A DNA stretch of 64,000 bases from Nitrospirota bacterium (GTDB lineage: Bacteria > Nitrospirota > UBA9217): contig JAOUEV010000002.1 of NCBI GenBank assembly GCA_029858565.1, positions 1-64,000 of the forward strand, written 5' to 3'. A program made the translations under genes and the position numbers. Below, in pieces: positions 35,313-48,846 of the stretch; within the stretch, counting starts at the first letter, position 1, and each line of letters starts with the position of its first letter. The notes below the pieces were generated by a model. It was not told the origin of the DNA. It did not search any database and saw only the letters and a program-made list of their open reading frames with translations.

Positions 35313-38006
35313 TTACTCGCCGGAGCTTTTGTCTGCCGCTGCCACCTGCACTGCGCAGACCTTCAGCTCGGGGATCTTGACCGTTGGGTCGAGTGCGTCG
35401 TTGGTGATCACGTTCGCCGCTGCCTCGGCGTAATGCATGGGGATGAAGATCGTGCCGGGCGGCACCATAGCCGAGATCCTGGCTGAGATCTCGATCACCC
35501 CGCGTTTCGAACGGACCTTCACTTTCCCGCCGTCCCTGATCTCCAGACGCACTGCATCCGCCTCGTTGATCTCCGCATAGGCCTTGCCGGCACGCTTCTC
35601 GATCGGCTCCACCCGCCGGGTCATGGAACCGGAGTGGTACTGATAGAGGTTCCTGCCCGTTGTCAGCACAAAGGGATATTCGTCGCTTGTTACCTCGGCG
35701 GGCTCCCGGTACTCCACCGGCACGAAGGGCACCCTGCCTTTGGGGAACCCGTCCTTGTACAGGAACTCGGTTCCGGGGTGATCGGGCGCTGGGCAGGGCC
35801 AGGCAATGCCCCGGGATTTGATGCGTTCATAGGATATCCCTGACAGAGCCGGCCAGAGCCTGCGGAATTCCTCGAACACCAGCTCGGGAGACCGGTACTC
35901 CATGGGGTATCCGAGATGGCGCGACAGGGCCATGATGATCGACAGGTCGTCCCAGGCGTCTCCCGGCGGATTCACCGCTTTGCGCACGCGCTGGACCCTC
36001 CGGTCGGTATTCGTGAAGGTGCCTTCCTTTTCATAGGAGCAGGCGGCAGGCAGGACCACGTGCGCGTATTTCGCGGTCTCGGTCATGAAGATGTCCTGCA
36101 CCACCAGGAACTCAAGATCCTGAAGCGCCTTGATCGTGTGGTGCTGGTTGGGGTCGGTCAGGACCGGGTTCTCGCCCATGATATAGAGCGCCTTGAGCCT
36201 GCCGTCGGCCGCGGCATTGATCATCTCGGTGGTGGTGAGGCCGGGCTTCGGCGGAAGCGTCACGCCCCAGGCTTCCTCGAACTTTTTCCGCACCGCGGGA
36301 TCATCCACCTTCTGGTATCCCGGGAATACGTTGGGCGCGCAGGCGGCGTCCGATGCCCCCTGTACATTGTTCTGGCCCCGGAGCGGGTTCACGCCGGTGT
36401 GGGGTCTGCCGATATTGCCGGTGAGGGTAGCCAGGTTCGCGATGGCCTTCACGTTGTCGGTGCCGCAGGTATGCTGGGTAATGCCCATGGTGTAGAAGAT
36501 CCCGGCCGTGCGCGACGCGCCGTAGATCCTTGCCGCACGGATGATGTCGTCCTTTGCAACGCCGGTGATGCGGCTGACCCGTTCCGGCGTGAAGTCCCGG
36601 ACCGCGTCCTTCCATGCCTCATAGCCTTCGGTCTTGTCCCGGATGAAATCGTCGTTGCGCAGCCCCTCGTCGGAGATCACCTTCGCCATGCCGTTCAGGA
36701 GCGCCACGTCCGTGCCCGGCCGGAGCGGCAGGTACAGCTCGCTGAACTTCGTCATGGGAACCCGGCGCGGGTCGGCAACGATGATCTTCGCGCCTTTCCG
36801 GAACGCCTTGATCATGCGGTTCGCGATGACCGGGTGGGTCTCCTTGGTGTTCGAGCCGATGATGAACAGGACCTCCATGCCCTCGATCTCACGGATCGAG
36901 TTCGTCATGGCTCCTGAACCGAAGATGGCGGCCAGACCGGCCACCGTGGGGGAGTGTCAGAGCCGCGCGCAGTGGTCCACGTTGTTCGTGCCGACCCCCG
37001 CGCGCAGCAGCTTCTGGAACAGGTAGTTCTCTTCGTTCGTGCACCGTGCCGAGGAAAGTCCGCCGATCGCGTCCGGCCCGCGCTCCTCCCGGATCTTTTT
37101 GAGCCAGGCAGAAACATACTCAAGCGCAGCGGTCCAGGAGGTCTCTTCGAAATTGCCGCTGGCCCGCCGGATGAGCGGTTTGGTAAGGCGCTCGGGGCTC
37201 TTCACAAAGGGATAGCCGAACCTTCCCTTGACGCACAGGAGCCCCTCGTTCCAGGCCCAGGGTTTCGATGATATCCTGATGATCTCGTTGTTCCTGGCGT
37301 GGACCGTGATGTTGCAGCCTGTTCCGCAGTAGGGGCAGACCGTCTCGGTCTCCCTGACGCCTTCGTACCGGCCTTTTCCTTTCCAGAGTTTTCCCGTGAG
37401 AGCGCCGGTGGGACAGACCGAGACGCACTGTCCGCAGAATTCGCAGTCAAGGTCGTCCTCAAAAGGGGTGGTGATCTTTGCCTTGAACCCGCGGTATCCG
37501 AAGTCAATGGCCTCCACGCCCTGCACTTCGTCGCAGATCTTGACGCACCGGCCGCAGAGAATGCATTTCTCCAGGTCGCGCTCGATAAAGGGGTTCCCGT
37601 CGCGCTTGGAATAGATCCTGCGCTCGCCGGGATAGCGTTCTCCCTTCACCCCATAGGTGTAGGCAAGTTCCTGGAGCTGGCAGCTGCCGGTCGCCTGGCA
37701 GGTCATGCAGTCGTTGGGATGGTCGGACAATATCAGCTCCAGCACGAACCTGCGGTGCTCTTCGAGCCGGGGGGTCATGGTCGTCACTTCCATGCCCTCG
37801 GTCACCGGCGTGGTGCACGACGCGATCGGACGGGGCAGGCCCTTTACCTCGACCACGCAGAGCCTGCAGCCGCCGAAGGGCGTGAGCTGGGGATGGCGGC
37901 AGAGGTTCGGGATCGCGATGCCATGGCGGTTCGCCGCCTCCATCACCGTGAGGTTGTCCGGGACGGTAAGTGCTTTCCCGTTTATGGTTATGGTCACCAT
38001 TGCCAT
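35313..38006 (-). CDS. NAD-linked formate dehydrogenase large subunit, selenocysteine form
   Basis: The molybdenum or tungsten bis-MGD catalytic subunit of a cytoplasmic formate dehydrogenase, 897 residues if UGA is read through. The order is an N-terminal [2Fe-2S] domain (C36 onwards, FGGCRLCVVEV), a His/Cys [4Fe-4S] site (DHPNDCMTCQATGSC), two [4Fe-4S] sites (CILCGRCVKIC, CEFCGQCVSVC), the MGD-proximal cluster (CPYCGTGC) and the catalytic domains. At codon 350 (36959-36957) UGA falls in NNVDHCARL-U-HSPTVAGL, where formate dehydrogenases have the Sec or Cys metal ligand. The frame resumes without change, and a SECIS-like hairpin follows. The start is ATG 38006, with GGAG 8 nt upstream. It is third in a NuoE-NuoF-FdhA-like operon. 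Confidence 0.93.
36927..36959 (-). promoter_or_regulatory. UGA codon and SECIS-like hairpin of the formate dehydrogenase gene
   Basis: On the minus strand UGA (36959-36957) is followed after 18 nt by a hairpin with loop GGUCU. The stem is GGUGGCC/GGCCGCC, spanning 36945-36927, with one G-U pair. The loop and 18-nt spacing match what I recall for the Escherichia coli fdhF SECIS. Confidence 0.85.
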
Positions 38007-44607: not shown

Positions 44608-46083
44608 CTAGATCCGCAGCAGCGTTGGATCGGTGTGGGGGATGAACACGGCTCCCCGGAACTCCTTCATGAACTCCGGGTCATCATGCATGTGCTTGTA
44701 GGTGATCCGCTCGATGAGAGCGCTGGCGCGTTCGGCCAGCGACGCGTCCTCGAGCAGCATGCGGCAGCCTGCGAGGGATGTGTTGCCCAGTGCCTGCACC
44801 TGTTCAGCGGGCCAGGCGGGAACCATGCCGATCGCGGCCGCTTTTTTGACATTGATGCCGGTCCCGAGCGCGCCGGAAACGTATACCCGCGCAATATGGC
44901 CGAAGGATACGCCGACGGAGCGCGTGAGCGTCAGGAGCAGTGTGAACATGGCTGCCTTGGACCGCAGGAAGTTCTGTATCTCCCCCTGAGTGATCTTGAG
45001 CGGGCTTCCGCCGCCGCAGGACAGGGTCAAGGTCCGCTCGCCATCCGCCACGGATACCTGCTCGCCGTCCCGCAGAACGCCGGTCTGATCGATCATGCCT
45101 GCCTGGTACAATTCGTAAACAAGACTGATCATGCCCGAACCGCAGATGCCTTCCGGTTCCGCATTGTCAAAGGTACTGCAGGTGACCGCTCCTCCGGAGA
45201 TCGTCAGGTCGTAGATGATGCCCGTTGTCGCCCGTTTCCCGATCCGCGATATCCCTTCCTCCAGCGCCGGTCCGGCGGCTCCCGCGCCGACGATCATCCA
45301 GTCACTGTTCCCGATCACGATCTCGGCGTTGGTGCCTACGTCGACGAGCAGTTGTATGTCCGTTGAGCGGTCCATGTCCGCCGCGATGATGCCTGCGGTG
45401 ATGTCCCCGCCCACGTAGCTTCCGGCGTTCGGAAAAGCGTAGATAACGCCTTCCGGGCAGATCCTGATCCCGAGGTTAGAGGCGGTCCGGAAGCCCGGAT
45501 CACGCACCACCGGGGTGAATGGGGCGACCGGTATCGTGGCCACATCGAGCCCGAGGAAAAAATGGGTCATGATCGTGTTGCCCCCAACGACCAGCGCGTG
45601 TATGTCCTCGGTGTTGATCCCGGCCATGCGGCAGAGGCCGGAGACCAGTTCATTGACGCCGTTCTTCAGGACACGGTAGACCTCTTCGCCGTTCCCGGTC
45701 ATGGTGTGGTGGAGCCGGGTAAGGACATCGCTTCCAAAATCTATCTGGGGATTCTCGACGGTTCTCGCTGCCACGTCCTTTGCCGCGAGGTTGTCATAGA
45801 GAAGACCCGCGAGGTTCGTGGTGCCGATATCGAGCGCCACGGAATAGGAGCGCTCCCGGCCGATGTCGATCAGCCGCGGGACCCCGAATGCGCTGCTGAT
45901 GATGCAGGAGAACGGCCGCCCGCGCTTTATGACCGCGGCCGACTTCCGCAGGACCGCAAGGGGTATGTGCAGACCGGGGAGTCCCAGGCTTTCCCGCAGC
46001 CGCTGGTCATGGGCACGGCGGTCGGAATCCGTGGCCCGGGGAAGCGAGATCGATTGGGAATATATAAGGGGCTGCGTAGGCAT
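44608..46083 (-). CDS. ASKHA/DUF4445 protein lacking the ferredoxin domain
   Basis: A protein of 491 residues of the RACo-like family, ATP-dependent reductive activators of corrinoid proteins. The ASKHA fold is clear: VALDIGTTNLAGLLYD, VGGNTIMTHFFLG, LVDVGTNAEIVIG, GISGGAV-like TISGGAVTC and SGALGTGINV. The usual N-terminal [2Fe-2S] domain is absent; the protein starts in the linker region, and only 65 nt separate it from the upstream gene. No corrinoid methyltransferase is adjacent. It follows the radical SAM gene on the same strand, perhaps by chance. Confidence 0.85.
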   Translation of the reverse strand: MPTQPLIYSQSISLPRATDSDRRAHDQRLRESLGLPGLHIPLAVLRKSAAVIKRGRPFSCIISSAFGVPRLIDIGRERSYSVALDIGTTNLAGLLYDNLAAKDVAARTVENPQIDFGSDVLTRLHHTMTGNGEEVYRVLKNGVNELVSGLCRMAGINTEDIHALVVGGNTIMTHFFLGLDVATIPVAPFTPVVRDPGFRTASNLGIRICPEGVIYAFPNAGSYVGGDITAGIIAADMDRSTDIQLLVDVGTNAEIVIGNSDWMIVGAGAAGPALEEGISRIGKRATTGIIYDLTISGGAVTCSTFDNAEPEGICGSGMISLVYELYQAGMIDQTGVLRDGEQVSVADGERTLTLSCGGGSPLKITQGEIQNFLRSKAAMFTLLLTLTRSVGVSFGHIARVYVSGALGTGINVKKAAAIGMVPAWPAEQVQALGNTSLAGCRMLLEDASLAERASALIERITYKHMHDDPEFMKEFRGAVFIPHTDPTLLRI

Positions 46084-46148: not shown

Positions 46149-47741
46149 CTAGTCTTTAAAGCAGAAAGGGTCCTTTTCGGAGAAAATATCAAGACCGCTG
46201 CTTTTGGCTACGGCAAGGCAGCCCCCGCAGGCGATGCGGACGTCGCATCCACTGCAGGACGAAGGTCCGAGACGGTATCTCTGTGCAGCATCGGAGTCAT
46301 AGATCTCGCCGAGTGTTCGTTCGCGGATGTTCCCGATCGGTGACGGCAGCTTCCTGCAGGCATGCACCTCGCCGTCGGCAAGAAGGGTCACGAAGTTAAA
46401 GGCCGCTCCGCAGCCGTAGCCCGTGCATCCGCCAAAGAGGTCCATTCCCCGTTCGCGCAGGAGGACATTGATCAGGTTGTCCTTTGTGCCCATGACCGGA
46501 TTGGTCTCCGCCGCGGTGAGGTACTCTTCCAGGAAGCGGCGGTACCCGTTCCGTTCCGTCATGGCCAGGTTCGCGCCTTCTCCAAAGAGCGCCAGCCGGT
46601 TGAAATGGAAGGCATCGGTCCGGTCCCGGAGCGCCTCGGCAAGCGGGAGGACCTGGTCCCGGTTCCCGCTGGTGAGCGTCAGCATGACCATGGAGGAGAC
46701 CTTGAGCTCCTTCAGGAGATCGAGAAAATCCATGATGCGGTCGAAGTGGCCTGCGCCGCGGATGCCGTCATTGTGTTCCCGCAGCCCTTCGAGGCTCACC
46801 TGGAAGAACGAAGGCATGGCGATCGACAGGATCTCCTCAAGGCGCCGGCGGGGCGCGGGATTGCCCAGTATGGCCAGTCCGAAGTTGCGGTCCGCGGCGG
46901 CCCGGTAGATCTCCAGAAAATTCGGATGGAGAAGGGGATTGCCGCCGGTGAAGGAGACCGCGCCCTGAACATTCCGTGACCTGCAGAAGGCCCGCAGATC
47001 ATCGAGCACCCGCAGCGCGTTGTCGAGCGCGAGCGGAGAGCGGTCGCTCCGGTCGTAGCAATGCTTGCAGTGGAGATCGCAGACCTGGGTGATGTGCCAC
47101 TGGAGCGTGAACGACGGCGTGGACAGGAACTCGGCGTCACCGTCCCTCCGGCTGGTGAACACCGAGGGGTCTCTCCGGAGCAGTGACTGCGGGGCCAGGA
47201 CAAAGCCCTGCCGAACGGCCCGCTCGATCGCTCCGTCAACAGCGCCGATCGGAAGGCCCCCTTCGGCGGCGACCGCCTCGGACGGGATCTCCTCAAGGAC
47301 CATCTTAAGCACCAGCAGGTCCTCGTTCGTTGCCTGCCGGGCCCGCGGTCTGCCGGAGCGGGGATCGAACCAGAGCAGCAGCCGTTCCGGGGTCTCTTCA
47401 GGAGAAGCCGCGGCGCTCTCCGGGTTGGGTTCGAGAAAGCCGGCAAGACCGGACCAGCCCAGGCTGGGAACAGCCACCGTGGGATTGGCAGTGAGCCGGT
47501 CAACGTTGACCGGGATGCTGTCCGCCCGCTCGCTCAGGAGCGCATAGGCCCGTTCAAGCCGGATGAGCTCCGCAAGGTAGTCAGGGTCGGCGCCGGAGCC
47601 GGAGTCCCTGACAGCGGACAGGAGGGCATCGGGATCAGCGCTGCCCGCGCAGCGGTTGAGGGCCTGTTTCCATCTCGCGGGGCCGATGATGCGCTGTGTG
47701 GCGGCGTAGGCGGTCGGGCCCATGTGTTTGTTCGGGGTCAT
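46149..47741 (-). CDS. sbtM: SbtM-like radical SAM maturase of the SbtA peptide
   Basis: A protein of 530 residues. An N-terminal domain of about 230 residues precedes the radical SAM core, whose cluster ligands are in QVCDLHCKHCYDRSD (CxxxCxxC), followed by VSFTGGNPLLHPNF. The C-terminal SPASM-type region has GCTGYGCGAAFNF, EVHACRKLPSPIGNI and CSGCDVRIACGGC. It immediately follows the triple-UGA peptide gene, and the two match the SbtA/SbtM thio(seleno)oxazole pair as I remember it from protein-family databases. It would modify the peptide after leader recognition. The start is ATG 47741; a frame to 47798 runs through the intergenic hairpin. Confidence 0.85.
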   Translation of the reverse strand: MTPNKHMGPTAYAATQRIIGPARWKQALNRCAGSADPDALLSAVRDSGSGADPDYLAELIRLERAYALLSERADSIPVNVDRLTANPTVAVPSLGWSGLAGFLEPNPESAAASPEETPERLLLWFDPRSGRPRARQATNEDLLVLKMVLEEIPSEAVAAEGGLPIGAVDGAIERAVRQGFVLAPQSLLRRDPSVFTSRRDGDAEFLSTPSFTLQWHITQVCDLHCKHCYDRSDRSPLALDNALRVLDDLRAFCRSRNVQGAVSFTGGNPLLHPNFLEIYRAAADRNFGLAILGNPAPRRRLEEILSIAMPSFFQVSLEGLREHNDGIRGAGHFDRIMDFLDLLKELKVSSMVMLTLTSGNRDQVLPLAEALRDRTDAFHFNRLALFGEGANLAMTERNGYRRFLEEYLTAAETNPVMGTKDNLINVLLRERGMDLFGGCTGYGCGAAFNFVTLLADGEVHACRKLPSPIGNIRERTLGEIYDSDAAQRYRLGPSSCSGCDVRIACGGCLAVAKSSGLDIFSEKDPFCFKD

Positions 47742-47759
47742 AGGGTCCTGAAAATTATA

Positions 47760-47792
47760 ATCCCGGGCAGGATATTTGTCCATGCCCGGGAT
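47760..47792 (-). terminator. Inverted repeat between sbtA and sbtM, possible attenuator
   Basis: ATCCCGGGCA (47760-47769) and TGCCCGGGAT (47783-47792) form a perfect 10-bp stem with a 13-nt loop, followed on the minus strand by TATAATTTT. It could terminate some transcripts after sbtA and lower sbtM expression relative to the peptide. Confidence 0.6.
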
Positions 47793-47842
47793 CATCAAAA
47801 GGGTGCTCTGTTACGTGTCTGGTGGTGTCTTCTGCTCGTTTG

Positions 47843-47860
47843 ATAGTGCGACCGCACTAT
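47843..47860 (-). promoter_or_regulatory. SECIS-like hairpin at the end of sbtA
   Basis: On the minus strand AUAGUGC, loop GGUC and GCACUAU form a perfect 7-bp hairpin. It overlaps the UAG stop codon (47859-47857) and starts 14 nt after the third UGA, with 21 nt from UGA to loop. The loop resembles the GGUCU of the other two SECIS-like hairpins. Confidence 0.65.
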
Positions 47861-48051
47861 TTCTTGGTGCCGCCTCAGCTGCCGCCGGGCGCCTTTTCGC
47901 CGCCTCAGCCGCTCTTGGCAGGGGCATGCTGAGCGTCACCTTTTTTACCGCCTCAACCTGAAGCGCAGCCGCCAGCCATGAGGCTGGTGCCCGCCAGGAG
48001 ACCGGCAACGCCGAGCCCCGCCAGGAACTTTTTCAGATCCTGTGCGTCCAT
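47857..48051 (-). CDS. sbtA: SbtA-like RiPP precursor with three in-frame UGA codons
   Basis: A 64-residue peptide ending at UAG if UGA is read as Sec. The start is ATG 48051 behind a perfect GGAGG site. The leader MDAQDLKKFLAGLGVAGLLAG is followed by TSLMAGGCASG. The core has U33, U49 and U59, each followed by Gly-Gly: SG-U-GG, SG-U-GG and GS-U-GG, with Cys29 as a fourth possible modification site. The regular spacing and repeated context argue against chance stops. The radical SAM maturase SbtM lies just downstream. A standard gene caller would stop at residue 32. The product and activity are unknown. Confidence 0.88.
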
Positions 48052-48118
48052 AGGACACCTCCTTTCCCCTAGGGTGCTGAATCTACCTGCCCCGATGTGC
48101 AGGATGCTCGATAGAAAA

Positions 48119-48147
48119 AGGATATCAGCATGCGCCTGCGGAGTCAA
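48119..48147 (-). promoter_or_regulatory. Sigma-70 promoter of sbtA
   Basis: Reading leftward: TTGACT (48147-48142), a 17-bp spacer and TATCCT (48124-48119). It lies 68 nt upstream of the sbtA start and is divergent from msrA. Confidence 0.6.
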
Positions 48148-48207
48148 GGAAGGTATTTCCCGACGGCCCCGCTCCCGCGGATCGCGGCGATGAGGTATAA
48201 TGAAGAC

Positions 48208-48846
48208 ATGAAAACTCTTATAACCATAGGAATGCTCGGGCTTGCGCTGGGAGGTATGACCATGGCTTTCGCTGATGACAGGACCAAGGCCGCAGGCGCT
48301 CCTGCGGTGAAGCTTGAAAAAGCGACCGTTGCGGGCGGATGCTTCTGGTGCATGGAGCCGCCGTTCGACAAGTTGAAAGGCGTGATATCGACCACCTCGG
48401 GATACACGGGTGGCAGCACAAAGGACCCGAAGTATGAGGAAGTGTCAGCGGGAATGACAGGCCATGCCGAAGCAGTGGAGATCCTGTTCGATCCCGGCCG
48501 GATAACCTACGGGGAGATCCTCGATGTGTTCTGGCGGAACATCGATCCGACGGTGAAGAACCGTCAGTTCGTGGATTCGGGAAGCCAGTACCGGACCGCC
48601 ATCTTCTATCACAATGAAGAACAGCGGCGGATCGCCGAGGACTCGAAAAAACAGCTGGCAGCATCGGAAAAATTCCAGGGGAAGACCATTGTAACGGAGA
48701 TCGTTCCCGCGGGCACTTTCTATCCTGCCGAGGAATATCACCAGGACTATTACAAAAAGAGTCCGACGCGATACAAGTTCTATCGCTTTAATTCCGGCCG
48801 CGATCTGTACCTTGACAGGATCTGGGGCAAGGACCGCGAAAAGTGA
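48208..48846 (+). CDS. msrA: Secreted peptide methionine sulfoxide reductase A
   Basis: A protein of 212 residues with an N-terminal signal peptide (ITIGMLGLALGGMTMAFA), so it acts in the periplasm or is membrane-bound. The catalytic motif is GGCFWCMEPPF with Cys45. STTSGYTGGSTKDPKYEEV, GHAEAVEILFDP and QFVDSGSQYRTAIFYH are family signatures. It reduces methionine-S-sulfoxide in proteins. ATG 48208 is chosen because it opens the signal peptide. It is divergent from sbtA across a 156-bp spacer. Confidence 0.95.
   Translation: MKTLITIGMLGLALGGMTMAFADDRTKAAGAPAVKLEKATVAGGCFWCMEPPFDKLKGVISTTSGYTGGSTKDPKYEEVSAGMTGHAEAVEILFDPGRITYGEILDVFWRNIDPTVKNRQFVDSGSQYRTAIFYHNEEQRRIAEDSKKQLAASEKFQGKTIVTEIVPAGTFYPAEEYHQDYYKKSPTRYKFYRFNSGRDLYLDRIWGKDREK

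Follow-up and report, generated by a model that had tools for sequence, protein, structure and literature searches.

The window, by which we mean the whole 64,000-nucleotide stretch of Nitrospirota DNA that was analyzed, contains a short precursor gene, sbtA, on the minus strand (47857..48051; translated with TGA as U). The gene has 64 codons, runs from an ATG at 48051-48049 to a UAG stop at 47857-47859, and holds three in-frame UGA codons that are each predicted to encode selenocysteine (Sec): UGA1 at codon 33 (47953..47955), UGA2 at codon 49 (47905..47907) and UGA3 at codon 59 (47875..47877), all on the minus strand. Every UGA is followed by GGC and then by GGC or GGT. A strong Shine-Dalgarno site, AAAGGAGGTG, lies upstream of the ATG (48056..48065, minus strand) at the same position as in homologs. 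With UGA read as Sec, the product is MDAQDLKKFLAGLGVAGLLAGTSLMAGGCASGUGGKKGDAQHAPAKSGUGGEKAPGGSUGGTKK, in which the Sec/Gly core sites are SGUGG, SGUGG and GSUGG; the core consensus over the 187 UGA sites of homologs is S-[GSA]-U-[SG]-[GA]. An initial annotation of this DNA had described the frame, its UGA positions, Gly-Gly codons and stop, and the ribosome-binding site, all of which are borne out. It did not give the strand, which is the minus strand; the peptide is absent from a plus-strand reading of the same coordinates. The annotation had also recognized the gene as an SbtA precursor, and the leader indeed scores 43.1 bits against the TIGR04081 model (E = 2.5e-11; cut-off 30.5), so the frame is not a chance one. 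This is the only TIGR04081 match in the 3.9-Mb genome, and Pfam returns no family match to SbtA.

Directly downstream of sbtA lies sbtM (46149..47741, minus strand), the radical SAM/SPASM maturase that the annotation had placed there. It scores 694 bits against TIGR04082 (cut-off 350) and retains the invariant radical SAM and SPASM cysteines; its open reading frame begins at 47798, but translation probably starts at the 47741 ATG. With both family models above their cut-offs, profile matching makes the window sbtA an additional member of the already known SbtA/SbtM family. Between the two genes is a 13-bp inverted repeat (47757..47795, minus strand) that overlaps a near-consensus promoter-like TGGACA-17-TATAAT (47782-47754), and this combination may possibly serve expression control of sbtM. 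The methionine sulfoxide reductase A gene, msrA (48130-48846, plus strand), is divergent to sbtA and also adjoins it in three other loci (L054-L056). A RACo/AcsV-like corrinoid activation protein is encoded downstream of sbtM (44608-46083, minus strand) and near sbtM in L056 too, and redox proteins are found close to some Desulfobulbales loci. The order seen in the window is the common one: sbtA is directly upstream of sbtM in 56/76 loci and downstream in 5. Among the loci compared, we found no widely conserved third gene beside the pair and no recurring protease, transporter, immunity gene or metal gene.

SbtM proteins above the TIGR04082 cut-off occur in 27 of the 396 genomes of the phylum, and a scan with one genome per species yielded 80 loci, mainly from Desulfobacterota and Nitrospirota; the close relatives that bear names are Nitrospirae metagenome assemblies. 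From the surveyed loci we recovered 84 distinct SbtA precursors which, by a strict motif count, carry no Sec (5 precursors), one (6), two (33), three (38) or four (2). A 2026 review table enters the SbtA family with two Sec (PMC13188914). The three Sec of the window exceed this published entry yet are not exceptional in the family, three being the commonest count. The selenocysteine reading of the initial annotation is upheld by the homologs, in which UGA positions swap with Cys codons and not with Trp. For instance, the core positions are Cys only in L062, L063, L103 and L118, while Cys and Sec are mixed in L058 and L059. The selB gene is present in 12/12 tested genomes with Sec-containing precursors; we did not see SelB in the genomes of the Cys-only L063 and L118, and the Cys-only genome L062 retains split selB fragments. 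The same reading is upheld by the host genome, where selA, selB, selC and selD are all found: it encodes tRNA-Sec (selC), SelB, SelA and two SelD genes. The two selD genes (L049 and L050) differ from each other within this one genome, and each has an in-frame UGA and a SECIS element. Two formate dehydrogenase alpha genes of the genome also have an in-frame UGA; one of them lies in the window (35343-37343, minus strand), an fdhA selenoprotein gene with one UGA and the canonical SECIS GGUGGCC-GGUCU-GGCCGCC. The SECIS hairpins of the host fdhA and selD are ordinary; the loops in fdhA and in one selD are of the GGUC type.

We find that the N-terminal domain of SbtM (196 residues; 47121..47708, minus strand) resembles a protein family from other peptide pathways. 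Aligned by hhalign with ten HvfC-like proteins of the phylum, it matches at 96.5% (E = 8.3e-10) around L-A-R-L-E, against at most 0.3% for 13 control families and 0.8% for the SbtM catalytic core. The NCBIfam HvfC model NF050145 matches 3 of 18 SbtM members with a best E of 8.6e-4, scores that stay below its 142-bit cut-off. Modeled alone, the 196 residues reach a pLDDT of 87, and a Foldseek search of the PDB gives the TglHI complex as the sole confident match (8hci/8hi7; probability 1.00, E ~3e-3); from its domain make-up, chain A of that structure is probably TglI. Judged by profile alignment and predicted fold, the SbtM N-terminal domain is homologous to the HvfC/DUF2063 partners of MNIO enzymes, and we predict that it is the precursor-binding module. 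We found no earlier statement of this homology in the literature searched, a body that does not include the original SbtM paper, and no NF050145 match to a separate HvfC/BufC partner in the host genome (G000). In predicted structure, the catalytic part of SbtM is like CteB, SuiB and SkfB. The initial annotation had held the SbtA/SbtM pairing to be known only from family annotation, but the enzymology is published. As related in PMC11002830, SbtM removes four hydrogens from both Cys and Sec substrates in vitro (Lewis 2021); the Cys product was identified by NMR as a thiooxazole, and the Sec substrate undergoes the same mass loss. A band at ~305 nm of the SbtM product is common to bufferins and oxazolin (PMC13097082).

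The leader of SbtA carries a second signal. We assigned signal peptides by motif (basic n-region, hydrophobic stretch, lipobox Cys), and the window SbtA has all the features of the lipoprotein (SPII) type. Codons 1-28 (47968..48051, minus strand) encode the predicted lipoprotein signal peptide, with a KK n-region and the hydrophobic FLAGLGVAGLLAGTSLMAGG, and Cys29 (47965..47967, minus strand), within the motif M-A-G-G-C, is the lipobox cysteine and predicted lipidation site. Across the family, SbtA leaders have the appearance of export signals. Of 77 leaders, 48 have a lipobox Cys around residue 28 (44 by pattern and 4 by eye); the other 29 lack a Cys there and mostly have type-I-like sites, so the system can do without lipidation. 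The initial annotation had counted Cys29 as a potential fourth modified chalcogen residue. We ruled out this role for Cys29 because it sits in the lipobox, and since the cysteine is missing in the 29 of 77 homologs without a lipobox, a total of four such residues is unlikely. Few RiPP precursors have export signals, but bufferins do as a rule, and 16% of Buf2 have predicted lipoprotein signals (PMC12452194); for NedA, a RiPP bearing -4 Da rings, lipidation has been demonstrated (PMC12636315).

Based on these data, we propose that sbtA encodes an exported, membrane-anchored selenopeptide precursor in which SbtM would form selenooxazoles, with soft-metal sequestration as the likeliest job; as a whole we consider this reading probable, by a modest measure. 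SelB and tRNA-Sec would read all three UGAs as selenocysteine, and the precursor would be bound by the HvfC-like N-terminal domain of SbtM, whose radical SAM/SPASM domain would take four hydrogens from each Sec-Gly to give a selenooxazole (a thiooxazole in Cys homologs). As the leader doubles as a lipoprotein signal peptide, the general Sec (export), Lgt and Lsp enzymes would then export the precursor, lipidate Cys29 and cut the leader. The end product would be a short peptide that is anchored in the membrane and bears three selenooxazoles; in the periplasm these rings may trap a soft metal, for example Cu(I). We favor this job because the recognition domain, the ring and the export route are common with bufferins and oxazolins, and ring peptides of that type bind Cu(I) (PMC12538549). 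By analogy, the mature peptide may be a membrane-anchored selenium analog of a bufferin, although metal binding by the mature peptide, taken alone, is a nearly balanced question that tips slightly toward doubt; that no metal gene recurs next to sbtAM in the loci compared speaks against it. Family membership, the Sec machinery, SECIS conservation, the lipobox and the domain homology are sequence-based here, and ring formation comes from the in vitro work of others on a homolog; we infer the decoding of UGA1 and UGA2 as Sec, lipidation and metal binding.

The peptide could instead be exported as a selenium-based redox buffer that counters oxidative stress, tied to the divergent msrA and not a metal trap. 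The placement of msrA next to sbtA, in the window as in L054-L056, would suit such a role, as would the redox proteins near some Desulfobulbales loci. However, the msrA adjacency is limited to close relatives of the window, a chalcogen within a ring differs from a free thiol or selenol, and the related ring peptides bind Cu(I), as cited above; we regard a redox buffer as unlikely. A further possibility is a secreted selenium RiPP that works outside the cell as a bacteriocin or signal. The family carries the database name "selenobacteriocin" in the 2026 review table (PMC13188914), and SbtA is small, modified and equipped with an export signal. Yet sbtA and sbtM have no widely conserved companions, which fits the use of general export machinery and speaks against a bacteriocin: among the loci compared, genes for immunity, a dedicated transporter or a processing protease are not a recurring feature of the neighborhood. 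In addition, products of the 48/77 leaders with a lipobox would remain in the membrane, and the system is spread broadly over Nitrospirota and Desulfobacterota genomes, so that a bacteriocin or signal seems to us improbable.

The proposed selenooxazole peptide presupposes that each UGA is decoded as Sec. The bacterial SECIS (bSECIS) model has a loop of 3-9 nt with a G in its first two positions, a stem of at least 4 bp and a distance of 16-37 nt from the UGA (PMC13188914). Rfam gave no SECIS-type match, only chance matches. With a G in the loop and the bacterial distance from the UGA as the criterion, a SECIS-like hairpin is found at 172/187 UGA sites of 77 precursors, against 49±5 in codon shuffles; the 187 sites probably include a few terminal UGA stops. 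A peptide motif a few residues past Sec, GAGST or GAVST, is the translated hairpin (GGU GCA GGU AGC ACC). Stem pair 3-13 joins the last base of the Gly codon to the opening base of codon five; in a test anchored solely on this peptide motif, these two bases pair in 32/33 distinct sequences, compared to a shuffle mean of 20.4 and maximum of 26. The hairpin behind the last UGA often spans the stop codon and untranslated sequence. As judged from these pairings, the family has a covarying SECIS at each UGA, of which the GAGST motif is the coding shadow. Two variants were also observed: in L082, L107, L129 and L095, sbtA apparently uses UGA as both Sec codon and final stop, and in L013, L018, L060, L084, L100 and L137, tandem UGAs 3-6 codons apart have one SECIS hairpin in common.

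The window's lineage, which comprises the window, L003, L007/L136, L008 and L010 (eight genes), has a clear SECIS hairpin at the last UGA only, and this hairpin is near-identical in the eight genes. In the window it is AUAGUGC-GGUC-GCACUAU (47843..47860, minus strand), an 8-bp perfect inverted repeat that spans the UAG stop, with its loop 21 nt past UGA3. UGA3 agrees with the bSECIS model (GGUC loop, 7 bp, 21 nt) at -7.6 kcal/mol, a value equaled by 4% of shuffles. The hairpin at UGA2 fits formally (loop GGCA, 21 nt), but so do those of 14% of codon shuffles, and at UGA1 we found no hairpin that fits the model, a point that the initial annotation had passed over. Compared with synonymous controls, internal UGA sites give z = -0.8 in the window's lineage versus z = -9.1 in the rest of the family. 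In L008 the terminal hairpin carries a compensatory change (UCGUGC-GGUC-GCACGA) and is retained with the last UGA replaced by GAA. The genome of one relative has an SbtA paralog with canonical internal SECIS (L137), on a different contig from sbtM, and an sbtM-linked copy (L138) that differs from it in internal SECIS. Since L137 and the host fdhA and selD have ordinary SECIS, we consider altered SelB specificity an unlikely reason for the absent SECIS at UGA1 and UGA2.

Because UGA1 has no hairpin that fits the model and the UGA2 hairpin is matched by 14% of shuffles, the case for Sec at these two sites is drawn from conservation. Were translation to terminate at UGA1 in this lineage, only a 32-residue fragment would be made and the remainder would be decaying, an idea to which the missing SECIS at UGA1 and the GAA codon of L008 lend some weight. 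Against it, the core repeats, internal UGAs and terminal hairpin are kept in genera g1, g2 and g7 and in paralogs, a pattern that needs read-through of UGA1, and neither sbtM nor the Sec machinery is disrupted. The peptide past the first UGA, on whose conservation the initial annotation had made its reading depend, is kept in homologs, and termination at UGA1 is in our view very unlikely. That UGA is read as another residue such as Trp or Cys, through misreading or a reassigned code, would accommodate a UGA1 without SECIS but is scarcely credible in a genome with the full Sec pathway and further UGA selenoproteins with canonical SECIS, and in a family whose homologs exchange Sec for Cys and not Trp.

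If the internal UGAs are read as Sec, they might be decoded without a bSECIS of their own, either through a stop-codon hairpin that serves all UGAs (over at most ~100 nt) or through a small hairpin beginning right at the UGA; we offer this as a speculation and think it doubtful. In this lineage, a 27-nt hairpin adjacent to the internal UGAs has a summed z of -5.2 versus synonymous controls (0.0 elsewhere in the family). This signal is post hoc, driven by a few sites and of little strength in the window gene itself (ranks 0.38 and 0.22), and is only a lead. If true, either decoding mode would break the 16-37 nt bacterial SECIS rule. With three UGAs in 64 codons and one clear SECIS, the window's lineage is a natural test of the reach of bacterial SECIS elements.

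Compared with the published SbtA/SbtM system (TIGR04081/TIGR04082; Lewis et al. 2021), the window's genes are alike in precursor leader, U-Gly-Gly core and adjacent radical SAM/SPASM maturase. They differ in having three Sec versus two in the table, in the lipoprotein-type leader pointed out here and in a UGA1 without a recognizable SECIS. What our analysis adds to the known family is the export leader, the link to MNIO partners, the SECIS anatomy and the puzzling decoding of UGA1 in the window's lineage. Similarly to SbtA/SbtM, the bufferins (BufA/BufB/BufC) have a precursor with an export signal, a Cys-derived thiooxazole and a DUF2063-type partner that corresponds to the SbtM N-terminal domain. 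However, their ring is made by an MNIO multi-iron enzyme whereas SbtM is a radical SAM enzyme, they contain sulfur and not selenium, and their partner is a separate protein where SbtM has a fused domain. The bufferin precursor families are also unrelated in sequence to SbtA, which does not belong to the BufA type. The oxazolins and lipo-NedA (HvfABC type; DAG-RiPPs) share repeated short X-Cys-Gly units and an HvfC partner that resembles the SbtM N-terminal domain, and NedA has a lipoprotein signal, as is predicted for the window SbtA; unlike SbtA/SbtM, they have EGKCG repeats and an MNIO enzyme, and selenium is absent. CteB, SuiB and SkfB, which form thioether or carbon-carbon links, combine a catalytic fold with an N-terminal substrate-binding domain as SbtM does, but the SbtM domain is longer and HvfC-like. 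The reaction of the SbtA family was known, and the link to the copper-sequestering bufferins gives SbtA a concrete, testable job. If true, chalcogen-oxazole metallophores have been built twice in nature by unrelated catalysts, once with selenium.
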